Below are positions 7,219 to 25,897 of a stretch of DNA of 36,573 nt, in pieces (position 1 is the first letter of the stretch; each line of letters opens with the position of its first letter). This DNA comes from a virus, in the IMG/VR virus record IMGVR_UViG_3300025122_000067, positions 1 to 36,573 of that record; one strand, written 5' to 3'. The position numbers and the translations under genes were made by a program. The notes below the pieces were generated by a model. It was not told the origin of the DNA and did no database searches. It saw nothing but the letters and a program-made list of their open reading frames with translations.

Positions 7219-8403
7219 TTATCCCATAAAGATAGCTAATCCGTTCGGCATTGGAACGTATTTTAGCTGTTTGTTGATGTTTTCAGCTCTTGTCGCCTGT
7301 AGTTCGACGAGCTTATCATATGTCATTGTCTCAAGCATTTCAGTTAGTTGTGTTATCAATGTTTTCTTGTCTTCTCTTCCTTGTGATACTAAGTCAGTTC
7401 CATTAAGCGTCAGGTCTGCACCTGGAATTGGAATGGATCCAAATTTTGATCTAATGAGTCCGAGCTGTTCTTTGCTCAATGATAGTGCATACTGGCGGAT
7501 CCACTGTCTTCCTATGCTGTTAATTTCAGAGTATTTTAATTTTCCAAACGGAATATCTGAAAGATTGGACACGCCTTTTATGGTTTCATCCTGATAAGAA
7601 GGATTAAGAGGATCCGAGAAAAATCTAATTCTAAGAAATAGCTTTCTGGGTGTGTCCTGGGTTGGCAGCGGGTATAGTCTTATTTTTGTTCCAATGATCT
7701 TATAAGAGTAGTTTGAGCGTCTCACCCTATTGGAAAGATCTAGCTGCCCAGCTCGAAGAATGTCCTCAAAAACAGGTAAAACATAAAAAATTGTCTCGGG
7801 CGTAAAAGATTCAAATGAAAACTCATTATTTAAATAATTGATTGCTGAAGTTGTGTCAAAAAACCTATATGCTGCCTGAGGGCTGAAGTGAAAGACCTCA
7901 CTTATCTGGAGCTTTGATCGAGGTGCAGTGTTCATGCTAGATGAGAAAATTAAATCTCCGCTTGCATCCTTTAGGGTGCTGTAGATGTCATAATCCTGTT
8001 GATTTTTAACTAGCTGAATTGATCCAGACATCATATCATAGGATCCACCAGTTCCAGCTTCAAATGCGTATGGTTCAGCAAATCTTGTTAAATAATCTAA
8101 GTTTTCCCTAGGGTATCGACCCTCTGATCCGGACATGTGACCATCAGAGCCTGTTGTTGGCATTCCTAAAAATTGAACTATCTGAGACTTAGCCTGATAT
8201 TGGTTTAAAATTGAACTATATTCAAGGGATGCTTCTTCTAAGTTGGCCCATATTTGTTTTTTTGTAAGCTCAACACTAAGAATATCATCGCCTAGCTTTC
8301 TTTTGACAAAGGTTATGAGATTATCTGCTTCCTGTTGAAATGCAGTGTCACTATCAAAAAATCCAAACGGTGTAGGGTTTCCAGTATTTGCAAAAGTTGC
8401 CAA
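7219..8403 (-). CDS. gp13: Neck protein, gp13-like (TTG start)
   Basis: 394-residue protein resembling T4 gp13, the neck protein contacting the portal vertex. KRKLGDDILSVELTKKQI (34-51) followed by EASLEY corresponds to the gp13 LRRLGAPIINVELTPDQI region. Near the C-terminus, IRQYALSLSKEQLGLIRSKF and PGADLTLNGTDLVSQGREDK match VKDYATALAKELNGQILAR and PGGVTIDGQRLIEEARLEK in gp13, and both proteins end in a short hydrophobic stretch with a terminal glycine. The start codon is TTG: a strong GGAGGG ribosome site lies just upstream of 8403 and no ATG occurs in the first 90 or so codons. It heads the tightly packed 13-14-15 group and is preceded by a 107-base gap with a weak promoter-like motif. 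Confidence 0.8.
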   Translation of the reverse strand: MATFANTGNPTPFGFFDSDTAFQQEADNLITFVKRKLGDDILSVELTKKQIWANLEEASLEYSSILNQYQAKSQIVQFLGMPTTGSDGHMSGSEGRYPRENLDYLTRFAEPYAFEAGTGGSYDMMSGSIQLVKNQQDYDIYSTLKDASGDLIFSSSMNTAPRSKLQISEVFHFSPQAAYRFFDTTSAINYLNNEFSFESFTPETIFYVLPVFEDILRAGQLDLSNRVRRSNYSYKIIGTKIRLYPLPTQDTPRKLFLRIRFFSDPLNPSYQDETIKGVSNLSDIPFGKLKYSEINSIGRQWIRQYALSLSKEQLGLIRSKFGSIPIPGADLTLNGTDLVSQGREDKKTLITQLTEMLETMTYDKLVELQATRAENINKQLKYVPMPNGLAIFMG

Positions 8404-8510: not shown

Positions 8511-9398
8511 TTAATTAAATCTATATCCCTGCTCTGATATGAGATCAGCAAAGAGATCTTCGACCATTTTTTTTGATTCTTCAGTGTAATATTCATGAAA
8601 TGGCATTTTAGATTTTCTTTCTACGGACTTGAGTCGTGGAAGATGGGCAGTTGTCAACAATAAGCTTAAACACAGTTTATCATAATCTTCTTGAAGATTT
8701 TCAAATCTCAAGATAAAGTCAAAATTCTTATAATGATAAAACTCATTCATTATCTTTGAGAAATGGTTTAAAACAGTATCTCTTCCAGATTCTTGAAGGT
8801 TTTTGCTTGAAGCTAACGGCTGGAGTGGGTTTGTTTTTGTTTTCAAAAAAAGATTAAATTTTCTTCTTAGCATTTGCGGAGAATCATCACATCTCCCTCT
8901 TAGACCAGGCAACATAGCAGACTCATCTATACCAAGATCCATTATGCTATCTCCATCTTTTCTTGCCATGACTTTATCAGATGATGACCACCAGTAGAAG
9001 GACACCAGCGCATCCCAGGGGTTTCTCACAATAGATATTGTTTTATAATTATCAAAAATACCATTGCCCTTATTGATCTCAAAAAATCTAACGGGAGTGA
9101 TATGTGTATTATAAATTCCTTCTATAGCGTCAATATAAAAATCTTTTAACAAGACTTGCGGAGGGGGGTTAAAACTTCCCTTTTCTCTAATTAGATAATC
9201 TTTAGCCTGCTGGCCGACCAGACGCCTAACTATTTCATTGTTTCTATCTTGATATCCTGCCTCTATCTCGTCTCGGTAAGGAGAACCAGTTAGGATATCA
9301 TTTTTTCCACACTGGTTGCCAAGTGCAAACTCAATGCTTGAACCAGCAGATTTTAAAGGCTTAAAGAAAATAAACTCATTCTCATGAGAAATAATCAT
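8511..9398 (-). CDS. Sulfotransferase-like protein
   Basis: 295-residue protein with the two signatures of PAPS-dependent sulfotransferases of the carbohydrate type. FFKPLKSAGSSIEFAL (11-26) is the 5'-phosphosulfate-binding loop, in the place of the usual PK-T/S-G-GTS pattern. ISIVRNPWDALVSFYWW (121-137) is the 3'-phosphate-binding strand and helix, with the typical R-NP-D-S arrangement. Enzymes of this family transfer sulfate from PAPS to hydroxyl or amino groups of glycans or other acceptors; the acceptor here cannot be predicted. It is not part of the T4 virion gene set, so it looks like an accessory gene inserted between capsid and neck genes. It begins seven bases after the tubulin-like gene's stop with a poor ribosome site, consistent with translational coupling. 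A protein-modifying or surface-glycan role is a guess. Confidence 0.72.
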   Translation of the reverse strand: MIISHENEFIFFKPLKSAGSSIEFALGNQCGKNDILTGSPYRDEIEAGYQDRNNEIVRRLVGQQAKDYLIREKGSFNPPPQVLLKDFYIDAIEGIYNTHITPVRFFEINKGNGIFDNYKTISIVRNPWDALVSFYWWSSSDKVMARKDGDSIMDLGIDESAMLPGLRGRCDDSPQMLRRKFNLFLKTKTNPLQPLASSKNLQESGRDTVLNHFSKIMNEFYHYKNFDFILRFENLQEDYDKLCLSLLLTTAHLPRLKSVERKSKMPFHEYYTEESKKMVEDLFADLISEQGYRFN

Positions 9399-9405
9399 TA
9401 ATATA

Positions 9406-10707
9406 TTAAAACCCGCCGATCACCGAGATTGCAATCAGGCCAGGAAGCGGTTGTTTAACATATACGCCTGAAAACAATGTATCAGTTCTTCCTCCCACGT
9501 AGGAGAGTGCTGCTTCGATCTTTTTGCTTACACCCGGGTCTGATGCCATCTGGGGCGTCACCACAAGGAGCATTACACCGGTTGATGCCTTTCCACCTGG
9601 GTTTGGGCAAGGTGATGACCGCAAGCAGCCCTGATAAAGCATTGCTCCGATGTCCTGTTTGCTCACATCTCTTGCAACAGTGCTTCCTATTACCATCCTC
9701 CCTGTTGTTCCCAAGACTCTTTCAAGATCTTTAGAATCAAATGATTGGATTGGGGAATTTTCATCTGCAAGCTTAAGAACTTGCCACAGTAGCTTAGCAA
9801 AGTTTTTATTTGCTGTAGGATATAAGCCAAGCATGCCCACCTTGCCCCTAAGAAGCTGAAGCTGCTTCTCATTGTCAATGAGAATATGCGGGTGAAGTGC
9901 CACGTCTGCTGATAATGACTCATAGTTAGTTGCTATAGTCGGGTTAAGAAGCTCTTGTGCTGTAGGCTTGGTAACAATGTATACGACCTTTCCAGAAGCT
10001 CCCACAGACTTAAGGTATCTATCAAGAGAACCTTGCAAAACATGGCACGCGCTGCCTGTTCCACCGCCACCTCCAGCGAGAACAAATAACCAGTCTGCCT
10101 TTCCAACTCTTGTTCTAAGGGAGTCTTCTACAGAAGCGCTGTTATTTTCTAGAACTTTCTTTCCTAAGGCAATGTCTTTACCTACGCCATCTGCGCCAGG
10201 AAGAAGTAAGAAGTGTTCAGACGGAACACCCTCAGGCTGATCTTTTACAGTAGTGTTTATAAGTAGTGTTTTGGTAAACCCAAGATCCAGAAACGCCTTT
10301 GCTAGCTTTCCTCCACCGCCGCCAACACCTAAAAATGCACACTTGATTGCACTTGCTGCGGTGTTGCTTGGAAGCATCTGATCATCAACTGCAACCGGAT
10401 CATCATCATATGCTTCTACAAAGTCAAAATCATCAAAACCAGCAGCGAAATCGCTCGAAAATGAATCATCAGTAGGTACCTCTACAGCTGGCTGTGGTCG
10501 ACTATCTTGAGTCCCACCATCTTCAGACTGTTCCTGGGGTTGACTTTGTCCCACTTGAGCTGCGTCATTTAAAACTTCTCTCGCAGCCTCTTCATAAAAA
10601 CTATCCTTTTTTTCTTCAGGCATGTTCTCTTCTCTCCTATCCTTGTTTATAGACTTCCCGTCGGCATAAAACTCTGAGTCAAAACTAGAATGTACAGTAC
10701 TCGCCAT
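9406..10707 (-). CDS. FtsZ/tubulin-superfamily GTPase
   Basis: Tubulin-fold GTPase of 433 residues, or 405 if it starts at the internal ATG at 10623, which has a much better ribosome site. The first ~118 residues are acidic, Q/S/D-rich and probably disordered. The GTPase core then shows the T1 loop GVGGGGGK (127-134), the tubulin signature GGGGGTGS (212-219), an FtsZ-like IVTKP segment (244-248), IDNEKQLQ (277-284), corresponding to the FtsZ IPN-L segment, and FDSKD (323-327) in the place of the FtsZ T7 loop DFAD, which supplies catalytic aspartate to the next subunit. Retention of these acidic residues suggests it can polymerise and hydrolyse GTP. The protein ends with the core (AISVIGGF), with no FtsZ-type C-terminal tail. 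It follows the capsid terminator and lies upstream of the sulfotransferase-like gene. It is known that some jumbo phages encode tubulins (PhuZ) that position DNA; whether this is an orthologue is unresolved. Confidence 0.85.
   Translation of the reverse strand: MASTVHSSFDSEFYADGKSINKDRREENMPEEKKDSFYEEAAREVLNDAAQVGQSQPQEQSEDGGTQDSRPQPAVEVPTDDSFSSDFAAGFDDFDFVEAYDDDPVAVDDQMLPSNTAASAIKCAFLGVGGGGGKLAKAFLDLGFTKTLLINTTVKDQPEGVPSEHFLLLPGADGVGKDIALGKKVLENNSASVEDSLRTRVGKADWLFVLAGGGGGTGSACHVLQGSLDRYLKSVGASGKVVYIVTKPTAQELLNPTIATNYESLSADVALHPHILIDNEKQLQLLRGKVGMLGLYPTANKNFAKLLWQVLKLADENSPIQSFDSKDLERVLGTTGRMVIGSTVARDVSKQDIGAMLYQGCLRSSPCPNPGGKASTGVMLLVVTPQMASDPGVSKKIEAALSYVGGRTDTLFSGVYVKQPLPGLIAISVIGGF
10621..10642 (-). 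promoter_or_regulatory. Internal ribosome site and alternative ATG for the tubulin-like gene
   Basis: AGGAG on the minus strand lies ten bases before ATG at 10623 (residue 29 of the long frame). The same AGGAG-to-ATG spacing is used by the major capsid gene. The upstream ATG at 10707 has no convincing Shine-Dalgarno sequence. The shorter product would lack 28 polar residues and keep the whole GTPase domain. Confidence 0.5.
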
Positions 10708-10725
10708 TTAAGATCATACTCATGT

Positions 10726-10744
10726 TTCTACAATTATAAATATC
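10726..10744 (-). promoter_or_regulatory. Candidate promoter upstream of the tubulin-like gene
   Basis: The minus strand reads GATATTTATAATTGTAGAA, 19 bases before ATG 10707. It differs at three of 19 positions from the motif at 5303-5321 before the sheath gene. It lies just downstream of the strong capsid-gene terminator, where a new promoter would be needed to express the next genes. It is AT-rich and related in feel to phage late promoters; function is inferred. Confidence 0.45.
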
Positions 10745-10765: not shown

Positions 10766-10808
10766 GAAGATATAAACAAAAGAGGCGACCTCAAATGAGG
10801 TCGCCTCT
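10766..10808 (-). terminator. Intrinsic terminator after the major capsid gene
   Basis: A perfect 12-bp stem (AGAGGCGACCTC pairing with GAGGTCGCCTCT) with a four-base loop occupies 10781-10808. In the direction of transcription it begins 24 bases after the capsid stop and runs into a T-rich stretch (TTTGTTTATA, then further T runs). It is the only strong rho-independent terminator I see in the window and would limit read-through from the very strongly expressed capsid gene into the tubulin-like gene. Confidence 0.88.
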
Positions 10809-10831: not shown

Positions 10832-12772
10832 TTAGATGATGTTGAGATTCATGACAGTAACTGTACCGTAGAAGTCAGCTCGAACCATCTTCTTACCGTA
10901 GCGAGTCATCACGCCCTTGCGGGGTGTGAAGTCCTCGGGTGCGAAGATAGTGGGAGTCACGATCAGCGGTACATAAGGTGCATATACATAGCCTGTTTCC
11001 AGGTAGCTACCACCCTTGTATCCAACAAGAACCTTGTTCCGTGGGAAGTAGGGATCCTTGTAGACCGTAAAGCGGTTGCTCAACGAACCAATCGGTGCAG
11101 CACCGAGCTGGAAGGGAGAGCTTGCCTGACCCTGACCATCAAGACTGATGTTGGGCTTGTAGAGAACCGAAGCCTCAAAGATTGTTGCAACGTCCGGGGA
11201 GCAAACCACGAAGTTAGCAGAACCTCTAAGGGTCTTACGGTGAATCTCGTTAGCTACATCAATGATGGTCTCAACAAGGGTCTCATACCACTCCCGAACT
11301 GTACCTGTGAAGGTAGGACCGGCAGCAAGCGTGGAGGCCTTGTTCTGGACGTTACCATTCGTCTTGTTGACGAAATTACCAGGCATTCTAGACCAGTAGT
11401 AGTTAGCACCCTTTGCCTCAGTAAGGAGGTCATTAAGAATCTCACGATCAATCTCTAGAGCAATCTGCTCAGAGAGGATCTGTGTGAGCTCCACCTCAGC
11501 GTCGAGGCTGTGGTAGGCGTTCAAATCCTGTGCGAGTTCTGGAGACCAGCGAGCACGGAGCTTACGGGTTGCAGCAGTTACCGCGATGGATTCGATCTTA
11601 ATGTCAATCTCTGGGATTGCCGGAGATGGAGACGTACCGAAGTTCGACTCAAAGGTGGGAATGGTAAGAGTATCACCATCACCGCCAACATTAAGCGATG
11701 GTCCCATCGCATAAGATGCAGTAATGCCCAGCGTCTGTGTAGCTGTGGGTGCAAGCGGTCCAATATATGCACCAGATACAACGCAAAGGAAAGCAGCGTT
11801 GGTGTCATTCACACCAATCATCGGGTCTGAGGTGAATTGCTTAGCGCTGGAATTCCACGTTCCAAGCTGGTTGAGACGTCGGAGGTTAAGGATATTCTTT
11901 CCGCCCTGGAATGTATCACCAAGAACCTTGACGCCCTTTGTCGTAGGCTCATCAGAAAAGAGTGACCAATCCTTCACCTGCGTGGTGTCAAGACCAGTAC
12001 AGCTTGCAATCTGATTCAGGTTGAAAACTAGAAGCTGGAATCTACCATCTCCATCTAGACCAGTATCATCTTCAATAAGAGTTGTTACCTGAGGGTCGAA
12101 CTGTAGCAGCTTGCCATCAGTACCGGTGGCATGACAGACACCTCCGAGCTGCATTGCTGCGTTGCCCTGGAAGGCGCCGGAAGCAAGAAGGATTAGACGT
12201 TGCTTAGATGTCGTTCCCTTAATAGTCCCGTGAACCTTAGTATAAGAGTGACCAACAAGATCATACTGACCGCCAGTAGCTAGAGAACCACTTCGGACTC
12301 CCTTTCCAGTGGGGTTGTTGTAGATCGAGGTGCCTTTCTCATATGTCTGAGCATCAGCATCACCCGCAGCGCCGGTCTGAATGTTGGCGTCGCCACCAAC
12401 ACGTGTGCCGTATGTGTAATCCAGATAGAAGAGCAGCCCAGAGGGAAGGCTCATCGGCTGGATGGACACGAGCTCGTTAGAGATAAGTCCGCCGAAAACC
12501 CGACGAACAATCGGGAAAGCGATGTTTGTGAAGCCTCGAATGTCGCCAGAGGAGGTGGCGTTGCCAGCACCTGTTGACAGAGAGTTTTGCTCTCTCAGTA
12601 GCTGTGCAGCCTGATTCTCAAGCAGTCGAGACATGATCTCGCGACTGTGATCGCTGAGACCTCTTAGCAGACCCGTTCGAGTCCACTTTTCCATAAGACG
12701 CTGGCCCTCAGCACCCACGTTACGATCGCGAATGCCCTCAGTCAGCTGTGATAGAGTGAATGATTTTGCCAT
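10832..12772 (-). CDS. gp23: Major capsid protein, gp23-like
   Basis: HK97-fold major head protein of 646 residues, against 521 in T4 gp23. Matching segments include FPIVRRVFGGLISNELVSIQ followed by PMSLPSG (86-112), corresponding to VRRAIPNLIAFDICGVQPMNSPTG; ARWSPELAQDLNAYHSLDAE; ALEIDREILNDL; VLVGYKGGSYLETGYVYAPY; and FTPRKGVMTRYGKK near the end. About 125 extra residues lie between residues ~125 and ~400, an inserted domain relative to T4. The N-terminal region contains T4-protease-type sites (L/I-x-E): LLE at 50-52 and LRE at 59-61. T4 gp23 is cleaved after residue 65, so cleavage after E61 or E52 would fit. Base composition is visibly richer in G+C than neighbouring genes, as often seen in highly expressed genes. 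AGGAG lies ten bases before the ATG and a strong terminator follows. Confidence 0.96.
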   Translation of the reverse strand: MAKSFTLSQLTEGIRDRNVGAEGQRLMEKWTRTGLLRGLSDHSREIMSRLLENQAAQLLREQNSLSTGAGNATSSGDIRGFTNIAFPIVRRVFGGLISNELVSIQPMSLPSGLLFYLDYTYGTRVGGDANIQTGAAGDADAQTYEKGTSIYNNPTGKGVRSGSLATGGQYDLVGHSYTKVHGTIKGTTSKQRLILLASGAFQGNAAMQLGGVCHATGTDGKLLQFDPQVTTLIEDDTGLDGDGRFQLLVFNLNQIASCTGLDTTQVKDWSLFSDEPTTKGVKVLGDTFQGGKNILNLRRLNQLGTWNSSAKQFTSDPMIGVNDTNAAFLCVVSGAYIGPLAPTATQTLGITASYAMGPSLNVGGDGDTLTIPTFESNFGTSPSPAIPEIDIKIESIAVTAATRKLRARWSPELAQDLNAYHSLDAEVELTQILSEQIALEIDREILNDLLTEAKGANYYWSRMPGNFVNKTNGNVQNKASTLAAGPTFTGTVREWYETLVETIIDVANEIHRKTLRGSANFVVCSPDVATIFEASVLYKPNISLDGQGQASSPFQLGAAPIGSLSNRFTVYKDPYFPRNKVLVGYKGGSYLETGYVYAPYVPLIVTPTIFAPEDFTPRKGVMTRYGKKMVRADFYGTVTVMNLNII

Positions 12773-22461: not shown

Positions 22462-22746
22462 TTAAAAGTGAAATGAAGGAGGAATCTTTCTTTTCCTTTT
22501 TCTTTCTTTTTCGATCTCACACAGCTCTGGTCTCCACCCATCTAGCCATGATTTTCTCATCGATTGTGCCCATCTAAGCTCACAATCATAACAGCATTGA
22601 TAGCTAACATAGCTATTACGATCATCCGATGAAATCATTGCAAACTCACACACAGGACAAAAAAGAGGCACAGTTTCCTTTTTATCAGATATGACAACAT
22701 ATCCCTCAGGACGATATTGGTATAATTTTTCAGTCTTCTCACTCAT
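22462..22746 (-). CDS. Zinc-ribbon protein, unknown
   Basis: 94-residue protein with two cysteine pairs, C30-x2-C33 (CPVC) and C51/C52-x2-C55 (CCYDC), spaced as in a small zinc ribbon, followed by a basic tail with KERKRKRKIPP (80-90). Zinc ribbons of this size are often nucleic-acid or transcription-factor binding, but there is no match I can name. Its ATG overlaps the end of the Mre11-Rad50 fusion gene by eight bases, so expression is coupled to that gene. The basic tail would fit DNA or RNA contact. A role in recombination or late transcription is speculation. Confidence 0.68.
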   Translation of the reverse strand: MSEKTEKLYQYRPEGYVVISDKKETVPLFCPVCEFAMISSDDRNSYVSYQCCYDCELRWAQSMRKSWLDGWRPELCEIEKERKRKRKIPPSFHF

Positions 22747-25700
22747 GTTTTACAAACGCATCTTTTCCAATCTTTGAAATCTCTATTGAGTTATCTACAA
22801 TGTCTTTTATTTCATCTATATGGGAAATTAAAATAATATTCCTAAACCATTTTTTAAGAGACTCTAAAAGTCTACTACACGCTTCAATGTTTGTGCTATC
22901 AAGAGCTCCAAATCCTTCATCAATTATTAGCATGTTTGTTTTAGTCAAAGAGGAGACGTTAATCAATGCAGCTCGAATTGCAAGAGAAGACATCATTTTT
23001 TCCATACCTGAAGCCAGCTCTATTACTCGTCGACTATCTCCGTAATTGATAAAAATATCCATTGAATTAGATTCAGAATCAGCCTCAAGCTCAACAGTAA
23101 ATCCTACTACACCTTGTAAGATTTTAGCAATTTCAGAATTAATAAGAGGCAACTGAGACATCATAATCTGAAGAGGTATGCCTTTTTTGGAAACAGCCTG
23201 CATGAAAAGATCATACATTCTCAAGTCAGTTTTGATCGTTTTAAACTCAGACCTTTTATTTTTCATATCAGAGATCTTAACCCTGAGTCTGGCGATTTTT
23301 TCAATTAGCTTTAATTTTTTCTTATCCTGGCGCTGTATTTCATCCTCTAGGGAGATAATGCTCGACCTTATAACAGATGCTGGATTCTCTTCATCCTTGA
23401 CAACACGAGTAGACATATCGTCAAGCTTTAATTTTGCACTAGACACGCTAATCAAAACTTGATTGATTTCATTTGTAACATTGTTAACGTCTACGTTTAA
23501 CAATGAGACCTGGATAGATATCTCAGACTGTTTTTTAAGCATTCCCTCATATTTTTTAATTTTTTTCTCAATTTCTTCACCTAAAACTGACTCAAGCGCA
23601 ATTTTTGTATTTTTTAAAAGTGCAAGTGATTTCTTAACGCGCTCCTTTTGATCTTCTACAGTGTTTCTATCTCGATGAGAATCTCTAATAAACATGCATG
23701 ACTGAAAAGCATCACCGCAAGGAACTTCTCCTAATTTTTTAACTGACTTCTTCTGCCTATTAAGCTCTCTCTTGTCTTGCTCAAACTGATGCTGAATCTC
23801 AACAACTGATCTTTCAAGATTTTTTTGAACCTCAATTTTAGACTCAAGGTAATCAATAGAAAAGTCAGATTTTACCATTTCTATTTTTCTATTTTTGTCT
23901 TTCATATGAGAAATTTTCTCATTTAGATCACGTTCTTTCTCTCTAAGGCTTTCTATATCATCGTTATATCTTTCAACAATTTCTCTTTGAATAGTGAACT
24001 CTCCCTCAGTTATAACATCGGGATTGTCAGATATAGCCAAGCGAATGTGAAGATCGCTCAAGATTCCTCTTTTGTCTTTGATAATCTTTTCAAGTCCATC
24101 TGTCTCTTCTTTGTTATTGATGATGTCAAATTTAAGGTTATCGATTTCTTCATCCCAGTCTATGTCAGGATATAGCTTAGCTTTATTTCTAATGTCTGAC
24201 GACTTTAACTTTGCTATTTCATGCATCTTTTCAAAGATCCCCAGATCAAGAAATTTAGTTAAAATCATTTTTCTAGAAGTAGCACCTTCCTTTACAAAGG
24301 TATTCATCTCTCCTTGAGATGCTAGTGATGTCATTAAAAAATCATCAGACGTACCAATTAATCTTCTTAAAATCTTTTCAGTTTCTCTTCTTTGCTCCTC
24401 TGTTATATCTTCAGCTATATCTCCAGATGAATTCATTTTATGAAGACTCAAAGAGGTTGATGCATAAATCTCTCCTTTTCTTGTTTGATGTTTAACTGTA
24501 GATCTTATAACCCTATAGGGATCTCCGTTTAGATTTATATCAATAACAGCTCTAGCGCAATCTTTTCTATTATTAACAATATGAATATTTTTAATTGATC
24601 CTCGGTCAGTTGTGTTAAAAAGTCCATACATAAGTGACCCAACTATAGAAGACTTTCCCTTGGCATTTTTTCCAAAAATTCCTGTTATGCCAGGCAAGTT
24701 TTCAAAATTAATAATATTGTCATTACCATAGGCAAAAAGATTATCAAACCTTAATGAATTAATTTCCCATCTAGTGTTTCTTAATATTTCTTCTTCATTT
24801 GATATTTGTGACATGTAATTTTCTATAAGATCATCAAATTTTTCAAAATATTCATCATTTAGACCATTGCCTAAATAATATTCTCGAATTAATCTTTTAT
24901 GAGTCTTAGAGACTCTAAGGTTTTCTTTATTAAACGTTCCTGATTCTATTTTTATCTTAGACGCATCAAATGAAGACTCAGACTTAAAGACAACTTCAGT
25001 TGCTTCCTTTTCTCTTTTAAGGTCATACTGAATCTGTTTACTATCTGCGTGACTTATAACGCTTTCAGATCTTATTCTAAATCTTGACTGATCAGGATAA
25101 GAATCTGCTTCTTCGAGTGTTTTTTCAACCGAGCCCTTCCAGTCAATTGTAACAAAAGGGCAACTATGGAAAATAGGATAAAATGTGCTAGTAAATTTAT
25201 CTTTACTTTCTATTTCCCAAAATAAAAATCCTTTTCCCGTGTCTTCCCCGTAGTTTTGCTGGATGGTGCTGCCTGAATAGGCGACGCTTTTCTTATCATC
25301 TAGATATTGTCGCCTATGAATATCACCTAACAATGTGAAGTCAAAATCATTAAAAAAATTAGCTGTTACGTCTCCTTCAATCAGCCAGTCAATATCAGTC
25401 GTAGACCCCCATACAGCGCCGTGAAAAAGCGCTATATTAATACCAGACGCAGGTCGAATATTTTTCCACTCTTCCTCATCAAAACATGAAAATACACACC
25501 AATTAAAGCCAGGAACTCCCGTAGGATAAACTCCTGACTCTTTATAAAGGTGAATGTTGGGATTATTTAATGCTGAAAGAATTGGGCTGATCGCATCTTG
25601 CCTGTCTTTGTTAAGAATTAGGCCATCGTGATTTCCCAATATGACGTGAACCGGTGCTATCCTAGATAGTCCCGTAAACCACCAACAGAGGCTGTCTATC

Positions 25701-25870
25701 AGCTCTGGAGATATTCCTTGAGTCTTGCTATGTACAATATCACCCCCGACATAGATGACATCTGGGTTTAATTCTCGTGCTTGTTCAAAAAAGTCTAAAA
25801 AGGATTCTCTGTATTCCTCGTGTCGAGACAAACCCCTCCAATGAATATCAGCTATATGAATAATCTTCAT
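22739..25870 (-). CDS. Fused Mre11-Rad50 (SbcD-SbcC, gp47-gp46) recombination nuclease
   Basis: Single polypeptide joining the two subunits that T4 encodes as gp47 and gp46. Positions below count from GTG 25879. N-terminal metallophosphoesterase: DIH (11-13), GGD (45-47), GNHD (82-85), His153 and GDIH (185-188). From about 365 begins an SMC-type ATPase: Walker A GKNAKGKSS (403-411), long coiled coils (about 575-880), signature ELASGMEK (954-961), Walker B MLIIDEGFGALD (983-994) and H-loop His1020. The hook at the coiled-coil apex reads PCGDAFQSC (720-728), C-x6-C rather than the usual C-x2-C zinc hook. It should resect DNA ends for recombination-dependent replication. The frame also has GTG at 25879; I prefer ATG 25870 because the family typically begins MKI-x-HIAD-x-H. 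Confidence 0.93.
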   Translation of the reverse strand: MKIIHIADIHWRGLSRHEEYRESFLDFFEQARELNPDVIYVGGDIVHSKTQGISPELIDSLCWWFTGLSRIAPVHVILGNHDGLILNKDRQDAISPILSALNNPNIHLYKESGVYPTGVPGFNWCVFSCFDEEEWKNIRPASGINIALFHGAVWGSTTDIDWLIEGDVTANFFNDFDFTLLGDIHRRQYLDDKKSVAYSGSTIQQNYGEDTGKGFLFWEIESKDKFTSTFYPIFHSCPFVTIDWKGSVEKTLEEADSYPDQSRFRIRSESVISHADSKQIQYDLKREKEATEVVFKSESSFDASKIKIESGTFNKENLRVSKTHKRLIREYYLGNGLNDEYFEKFDDLIENYMSQISNEEEILRNTRWEINSLRFDNLFAYGNDNIINFENLPGITGIFGKNAKGKSSIVGSLMYGLFNTTDRGSIKNIHIVNNRKDCARAVIDINLNGDPYRVIRSTVKHQTRKGEIYASTSLSLHKMNSSGDIAEDITEEQRRETEKILRRLIGTSDDFLMTSLASQGEMNTFVKEGATSRKMILTKFLDLGIFEKMHEIAKLKSSDIRNKAKLYPDIDWDEEIDNLKFDIINNKEETDGLEKIIKDKRGILSDLHIRLAISDNPDVITEGEFTIQREIVERYNDDIESLREKERDLNEKISHMKDKNRKIEMVKSDFSIDYLESKIEVQKNLERSVVEIQHQFEQDKRELNRQKKSVKKLGEVPCGDAFQSCMFIRDSHRDRNTVEDQKERVKKSLALLKNTKIALESVLGEEIEKKIKKYEGMLKKQSEISIQVSLLNVDVNNVTNEINQVLISVSSAKLKLDDMSTRVVKDEENPASVIRSSIISLEDEIQRQDKKKLKLIEKIARLRVKISDMKNKRSEFKTIKTDLRMYDLFMQAVSKKGIPLQIMMSQLPLINSEIAKILQGVVGFTVELEADSESNSMDIFINYGDSRRVIELASGMEKMMSSLAIRAALINVSSLTKTNMLIIDEGFGALDSTNIEACSRLLESLKKWFRNIILISHIDEIKDIVDNSIEISKIGKDAFVKHE

Positions 25871-25897
25871 GCAATGCACTTACTTCTTAAAAATTTA

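Follow-up and report, generated by a model that had tools for sequence, protein, structure and literature searches.

A tubulin/FtsZ-superfamily protein with an acidic N-terminal arm and two predicted starts in T4-related marine jumbo phages

Introduction

What would a tubulin/FtsZ-like GTPase do in a phage that encodes it directly behind the major capsid gene of a T4-type head cluster, and does this position tell anything about its role? We addressed these questions for IMG/VR virus record IMGVR_UViG_3300025122_000067, whose whole analysed stretch of 36,573 nucleotides is called the window throughout. Previously known phage tubulins come from nucleus-forming phages (PhuZ), from a few TubZ-bearing phages and from phage G. 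PhuZ filaments position DNA and carry capsids (summarised in PMC13282480), in a survey of marine jumbo phages tubulin was unique to the phiKZ group (PMC9123017), and where reviews discuss phage tubulins, nucleus-forming phages are the main setting (PMC7824862, PMC13282480); these sources are from the openly licensed literature, and an earlier mention elsewhere is possible. A sequence-only reading of the window had proposed a polymerising GTPase, transcribed from a promoter of its own and linked to head assembly or to late infection.

Results

The gene and its surroundings

The open reading frame named in the sequence-only reading is real and encodes 433 residues; its strand, which had not been given, is the minus strand (Table 1). 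A pseudogene was ruled out because this frame is open and strongly conserved. The gene indeed follows the capsid gene directly, with gp23 immediately upstream across a gap of 124 bp, and on its 3' side come a sulfotransferase-like gene and then a gp13-like neck protein. Likewise, the T4-type head cluster was recovered, as the window contains terminase, portal, S77 prohead protease, gp23, the Ad2/gp13-like neck protein and sheath, and upstream the T4 order gp17, gp20, gp21, gp22, gp23 is kept, where gp22 (scaffold) is assigned by position only. A search of the window and of four class A loci found no Rfam RNAs, and the search for anti-phage defence gave no match. Sulfotransferase-like genes recur in this late cargo interval, both in the window and in the gp23-gp13 interval of loci L036, L044, L063 and L073, and perhaps modify virion or cell-surface glycans.

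Table 1. Features of the tubulin locus, in positions of the window
Feature	Position	Strand	Remark
Tubulin/FtsZ-superfamily GTPase, long form, 433 aa (MASTVHSSF...)	9406..10707	-	ATG start
Short isoform (predicted), 405 aa, begun at the in-frame ATG of residue 29	9406..10623	-	Shine-Dalgarno in front
MASTVHSSF tag at the N terminus (pattern in the family: M(A/P)S(T/S/G)(V/L/I))	10681..10707	-	
Shine-Dalgarno AGGAG of the internal start	10634..10638	-	
Conserved acidic-aromatic motif DFDFVEAYDDDP (family DFDFVEAYDDxP), just before the GTPase domain	10396..10431	-	
T1 loop GVGGGGGK	10306..10329	-	conserved in 37 relatives
T3 region NTTVKD (FtsZ: NTD)	10240..10257	-	
T4 loop AGGGGGTGS	10051..10077	-	
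T7 catalytic loop FDSKDLE, aspartates spaced like FtsZ D209/D212	9721..9741	-	
Promoter-like ATATTTA, shared with late operons	10737..10743	-	
Terminator-like hairpin after gp23, separating gp23 from the tubulin gene	10781..10808	-	perfect 13-bp inverted repeat
gp23 major capsid protein	10832..12772	-	Pfam Gp23 E=2e-77
Sulfotransferase-like cargo gene, same gp23-gp13 interval as the tubulin gene	8511..9398	-	
gp13-like neck protein (head-tail adaptor Ad2), bounding the cargo interval on its far side	7219..8403	-	

Fold and family assignment

The assignment to tubulins and FtsZ stands above chance by Pfam, by phmmer against the PDB, by a family profile and by AlphaFold2 combined with Foldseek. 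Searched as a single sequence, the protein matches Pfam Tubulin at E=8.7e-5 (below the Pfam gathering score), PHROG PhuZ at E=1e-3 and FtsZ in the PDB at 3.5e-7 (phmmer), while a 37-member profile finds FtsZ (1.2e-8), TubZ (2.4e-5) and RepX (4e-4) among PDB chains and no PhuZ chain below E=1. TIGR00065 and PF00091 are matched individually by all 37 aligned members; the TIGR00065 score, 30.1 bits, lies below the FtsZ-ortholog cut-off of 295.2. As the sequence-only reading had proposed, we predicted the structure and built a phylogeny. From the family alignment, AlphaFold2 models a complete tubulin/FtsZ fold for residues 111-433 (block pLDDT about 81-97), in which helices and strands follow in full order and the Rossmann GTPase domain, the central helix and the C-terminal domain are all present.

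Foldseek returned 913 matches at E<=0.001 for this model, headed by CetZ and FtsZ (E 1e-19 to 1e-17; target-normalised TM 0.67-0.78), with about 20% identity to FtsZ; the best structural hit is CetZ, which is a cellular protein in archaea (3zid, TM 0.67 by target, 20% identity). Of the viral models, uncharacterised 'FtsZ' proteins of uncultured phages match best, headed by A0A6J5RW92, an 'FtsZ Cell division GTPase' of uncultured Caudovirales with a similar length of about 450 aa (18% identity), and PhuZ ranks further down. In the tree PhuZ forms one clade (SH-aLRT 100) with the present family outside it, and gp138 of phage G occupies a separate branch; branches are long and the deep placement is uncertain. 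A chance match to a glycine-rich loop was rejected because the agreement extends to the T7 loop, to the fold and to the pattern over the whole length. By sequence and model, then, the protein is a member of the tubulin/FtsZ superfamily and not an FtsZ ortholog.

GTP-binding and catalytic loops

The T1 and T4 loops and the aspartates of a T7-like FDSKD, on which the sequence-only reading had relied, were confirmed and are conserved. Invariant in 37 proteins are G-x-GGGGGK in T1, GGGTGS in T4, DNE in H7 and the core of FD(S/T)KDLE, and the latter retains in the 37 relatives both catalytic aspartates, spaced D-x-x-D like D209 and D212 of FtsZ. The protein should thus, as far as its motifs tell, bind GTP and stack. 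Elsewhere the family departs from FtsZ: the N207 position is replaced by a variable S/T/A/V, NTD of T3 reads NTT, and the arginine at the R142 position is apparently lost. Hence, the hydrolysis rate or the use of nucleotide could differ from that of FtsZ.

The N-terminal arm, its tag and two starts

The tails of FtsZ, TubZ and PhuZ are at the C terminus. The phage protein lacks the FtsZ C-terminal peptide, as had been noted, because it stops at the last beta strand, and every aligned member ends within a few residues of this strand with no linker, peptide or tail. The N-terminal arm varies among members and is acidic, as had also been described for the window protein (24 D/E and 4 K/R in residues 29-112 of the window protein), and mostly disordered, with the exception of a helix that AlphaFold2 predicts at residues 32-52. 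In the acidic-aromatic motif of the arm, F94, F96 and Y100 are invariant and D93, V97, D101 and D102 are conserved in at least 90%. Two properties of the N terminus had been missed, namely a conserved tag and a dual start.

The tag pattern opens 39 of 1976 ORFs, 38 of which are tubulins (some loci are near-duplicates), and is missing, when applied strictly, from 27 of 59 family members. All tagged sequences that were scored have Ser3, encoded by TCT, TCG, TCA, AGT and AGC; as the selection pattern includes Ser3, the evidence lies in the variety of codons and not in the serine itself. Five different codons for one residue indicate that the tag region is translated and under selection at the peptide level. 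In 31 of 32 tagged genes an internal in-frame Met precedes the core, and its pairing with the anti-Shine-Dalgarno sequence reaches a median of -6.6 kcal/mol against -3.4 for control Mets within the domain (p=1.6e-6, with a small bias from taking the best of the available Mets). Pairing at M1 of tagged genes is weak (median -4.2), and untagged members start where the internal site would be, behind a strong Shine-Dalgarno (median -8.2). The main product in the window may therefore be the 405-aa form, given the better Shine-Dalgarno of the ATG at residue 29, and the simplest reading of these data suggests two isoforms, tagged and untagged, from one gene.

A capsid-targeting sequence at the tubulin N terminus was considered and is not supported, the tag being unlike the MKxLREYIRxLLxE tags of other proteins. 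Such N-terminal tags (MKLLREYIRxLLxE or MKITKRQLRxxIxE) are common to many unrelated ORFs of the relatives (L012 11776-21023; L156 9437; L155 1670) and are possibly capsid-targeting-like sequences. L005 has, at 9896-10216 and just upstream of an intact tubulin gene, the truncated N-terminal ORF of a second tubulin (106 aa, MASSVKSTY...), a trace of tandem copies or of replacement.

The site of the gene among relatives

At loci that show both flanks and have gp23 or gp13 nearby, tubulin always lies in the gp23-gp13 interval, usually just before gp13. This interval is a cargo slot, which in other phages holds sulfotransferases, unrelated genes or nothing, often without tubulin. About half of the relatives have the gene elsewhere, in large genomes some 40-150 kb from gp23. 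At about 60 loci of this other kind, a few of which are duplicates or reference loci, it frequently comes right after a phage tmRNA, with a sigma-70 region 4 gene and phoH following. The tubulin tree needs six changes of site, three of them forced by strongly supported branches. A fixed link to the head cluster is thus ruled out, and adjacency to gp23, from which the sequence-only reading had drawn a connection with head assembly, does not argue for physical involvement in the head. No cargo-adaptor gene was found travelling with tubulin among the relatives.

The tmRNA genes, which encode tag peptides such as ANDNVEYDYALAA, immediately precede tubulin in many relatives (L012 9300-9663, L009 5725-6130, L176 9447-9809 and others); since they are missing at the gp23-gp13 site, tmRNA was rejected as a partner and regarded as a syntenic neighbour. 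Directly downstream of tubulin and convergent with it, a small sigma-70 region 4 protein (TLQEIGDIFGVTRMRICQIEK) is encoded at L176 11032-11310, with equivalents at L009, L010, L028, L042 and L146.

Expression

The promoter of its own that had been suggested for the tubulin gene is supported by the terminator-like repeat behind gp23 and by the promoter-like ATATTTA. This motif precedes the first genes of virion operons (18 of 25 gp22, 23 of 60 gp13 and 11 of 36 sheath genes); no copy was seen in front of gp23 or gp15. It stands in front of 11 of 23 tubulin genes at the gp23-gp13 site and 12 of 32 elsewhere, i.e. only about 40-50% of them, against a background of 17/179 and 25/287 other genes with intergenic space; for tubulins elsewhere, the comparison with the 25/287 gives p=4.5e-5 (Fisher), where related sequences are not independent. 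We infer that ATATTTA is a promoter and, with its temporal class read from the genes downstream of it, a late one. As the motif occurs in both tubulin settings, independent of location, it is the strongest support for a late role of the gene, in line with the late-infection alternative of the sequence-only reading. Two other candidates were dropped: a search of the coding strand immediately before the gene did not find the T4 late promoter TATAAATA, and TTATAAYTG is enriched in the window, but not upstream of the relatives' genes.

The carriers

In IMG/VR, relatives occur in at least 333 stretches on contigs of up to 293 kb, most of the records used being fragments; a tblastn search of INPHARED found gp138 of Bacillus phage G as the only relative (25% identity over 42% of the query). 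Some carriers are contigs of 200-293 kb that encode T4-type heads, and the gp22-gp23-gp13-gp14-gp15-sheath cluster is common to the large genomes, which therefore form one clade of T4-related jumbo phages. Chimallin was detected in 0 of 18 related records and a multisubunit RNA polymerase beta subunit in 0 of 11, with phiKZ positive in both searches and several records partial. Seven records with a length of at least 140 kb were reached via gp23 and not via tubulin; four of them carry tubulin, which is not an unbiased rate as the gp23 queries were taken from tubulin-bearing phages. Tubulin is not universal in this gp23 clade, as one of the seven, 257 kb long, yielded no match. Weak hints at hosts come from tubulin contigs in MAGs of Flavobacteriales and Halobacteriovorax and from the nearest isolates by gp23/gp17, which infect Flavobacterium and Microcystis.

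Discussion

Fold and motifs, the shared late motif, retention through relocation, the dual start, selection on the tag and the spread over more than 300 stretches together support a late filament. That the protein binds GTP, forms filaments, is expressed late in marine T4-related jumbo phages and organises late infection is a reading to which we give about even chances; by analogy with PhuZ, a late GTP-driven filament would most likely organise DNA or capsids. In such a mechanism, GTP-bound subunits would stack in head-to-tail order, each T7 loop would trigger hydrolysis in the following subunit, and filaments would treadmill or turn over. The acidic N-terminal arm, which carries the tag only in the long form, could stand in for the C-terminal tail of FtsZ, TubZ and PhuZ and provide the point at which filaments attach to cargo or to one another. 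The filaments would most likely position phage DNA or move capsids in a PhuZ-like manner, without a phage nucleus. More tentatively, and with some doubt, we propose that nucleus-less T4-related jumbo phages own a late cytoskeleton in which a distinct two-isoform tubulin ties dynamic filaments to capsids or DNA through its tagged acidic arm.

The comparison with PhuZ (phiKZ, 201phi2-1, PhiPA3; Chimalliviridae), made in the sequence-only reading, holds for function only. PhuZ is likewise a tubulin-fold GTPase of jumbo phages, for which positioning DNA or moving capsids late is likewise proposed, whereas it falls into its own clade with weak similarity to the present family, whose carriers have T4-type heads and yielded no chimallin or multisubunit RNA polymerase hit. 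The acidic C-terminal tail of PhuZ builds a multi-stranded filament; here, such a tail is missing and a tagged N-terminal arm with a dual start is found. Bacterial FtsZ is the best sequence match, shares the T1, T4 and T7 loops and has a core that ends at the same last strand, but it possesses the C-terminal linker and peptide, NTD and N207 that this phage-encoded protein lacks or replaces, and it is without the long acidic N-terminal arm. TubZ of Bacillus plasmids and Clostridium phage c-st belongs to the same superfamily, in a mobile-element setting and with weak profile matches, while the present family has no C-terminal helical tail and, among the neighbours examined, neither a TubR-like gene nor tubC centromere iterons beside tubulin. 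Phage G gp138 (putative FtsZ-like) is the FtsZ-like protein of another huge phage, set apart by its low identity and separate branch.

Other roles have to be weighed against the late filament. The protein might antagonise host division by co-polymerising with host FtsZ, capping it or competing for its partners, such that septation is blocked and the cell enlarges for virus production. Bacterial FtsZ as the closest solved sequence, the conserved loops of the longitudinal interface and the cell filamentation reported for a jumbo phage (PMC13282480) speak for this. We nevertheless consider it unlikely: identity to FtsZ is about 20%, a C-terminal peptide for FtsA/ZipA-type partners is missing, the intact catalytic loop would be needless for a simple poison, and the promoter motif is of late type. 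Host-takeover genes, moreover, are usually early.

The late-type motif also weighs against type III (TubZ-like) partition, in which filaments would pull phage DNA via a centromere and a TubR adaptor in a carrier or pseudolysogenic state. The common superfamily, the profile matches to TubZ and RepX chains and the small sigma-70 region 4 HTH gene adjoining tubulin in some relatives would fit, but this HTH gene is not of TubR type, runs convergently with the tubulin gene and is missing from the gp23-gp13 site, and no iteron array lies near the gene, which makes partition quite improbable. The same motif, together with a position next to gp23 in many genomes and an N-terminal tag of unassigned purpose, would suit a virion or prohead component that is packaged or acts as scaffold or vertex partner in head assembly and never forms cytoplasmic filaments. 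To this we assign the smallest chance of all, given that the gene lies far from gp23 in about half of the family, that many members lack the tag and that a passive component would not need a conserved catalytic T7 loop.

If the late filament is true, an abundant conserved tubulin in T4-related jumbo phages without detectable chimallin would separate phage cytoskeletons from phage nuclei, suggesting that the building of internal filaments during virus assembly extends to phages that have no 'phage nucleus', and it would become testable whether tubulin-driven organisation of assembly had more than one origin. New here are the N-terminal tag, the internal start with strong Shine-Dalgarno (two predicted isoforms) and the acidic N-terminal arm without a C-terminal tail; the tail-at-the-other-end design with its dual start is a natural comparison for the control of filaments by tubulin tails.

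Two further observations concern other genes of these phages. Some relatives carry two tandem gp23-type major capsid genes (G009 139-143 kb, G014 176-180 kb; L132, L133 and L134). In the window, SbcD- and SbcC-like domains (T4 gp47/gp46) are fused into one protein of 1046 aa, encoded at 22739-25879.
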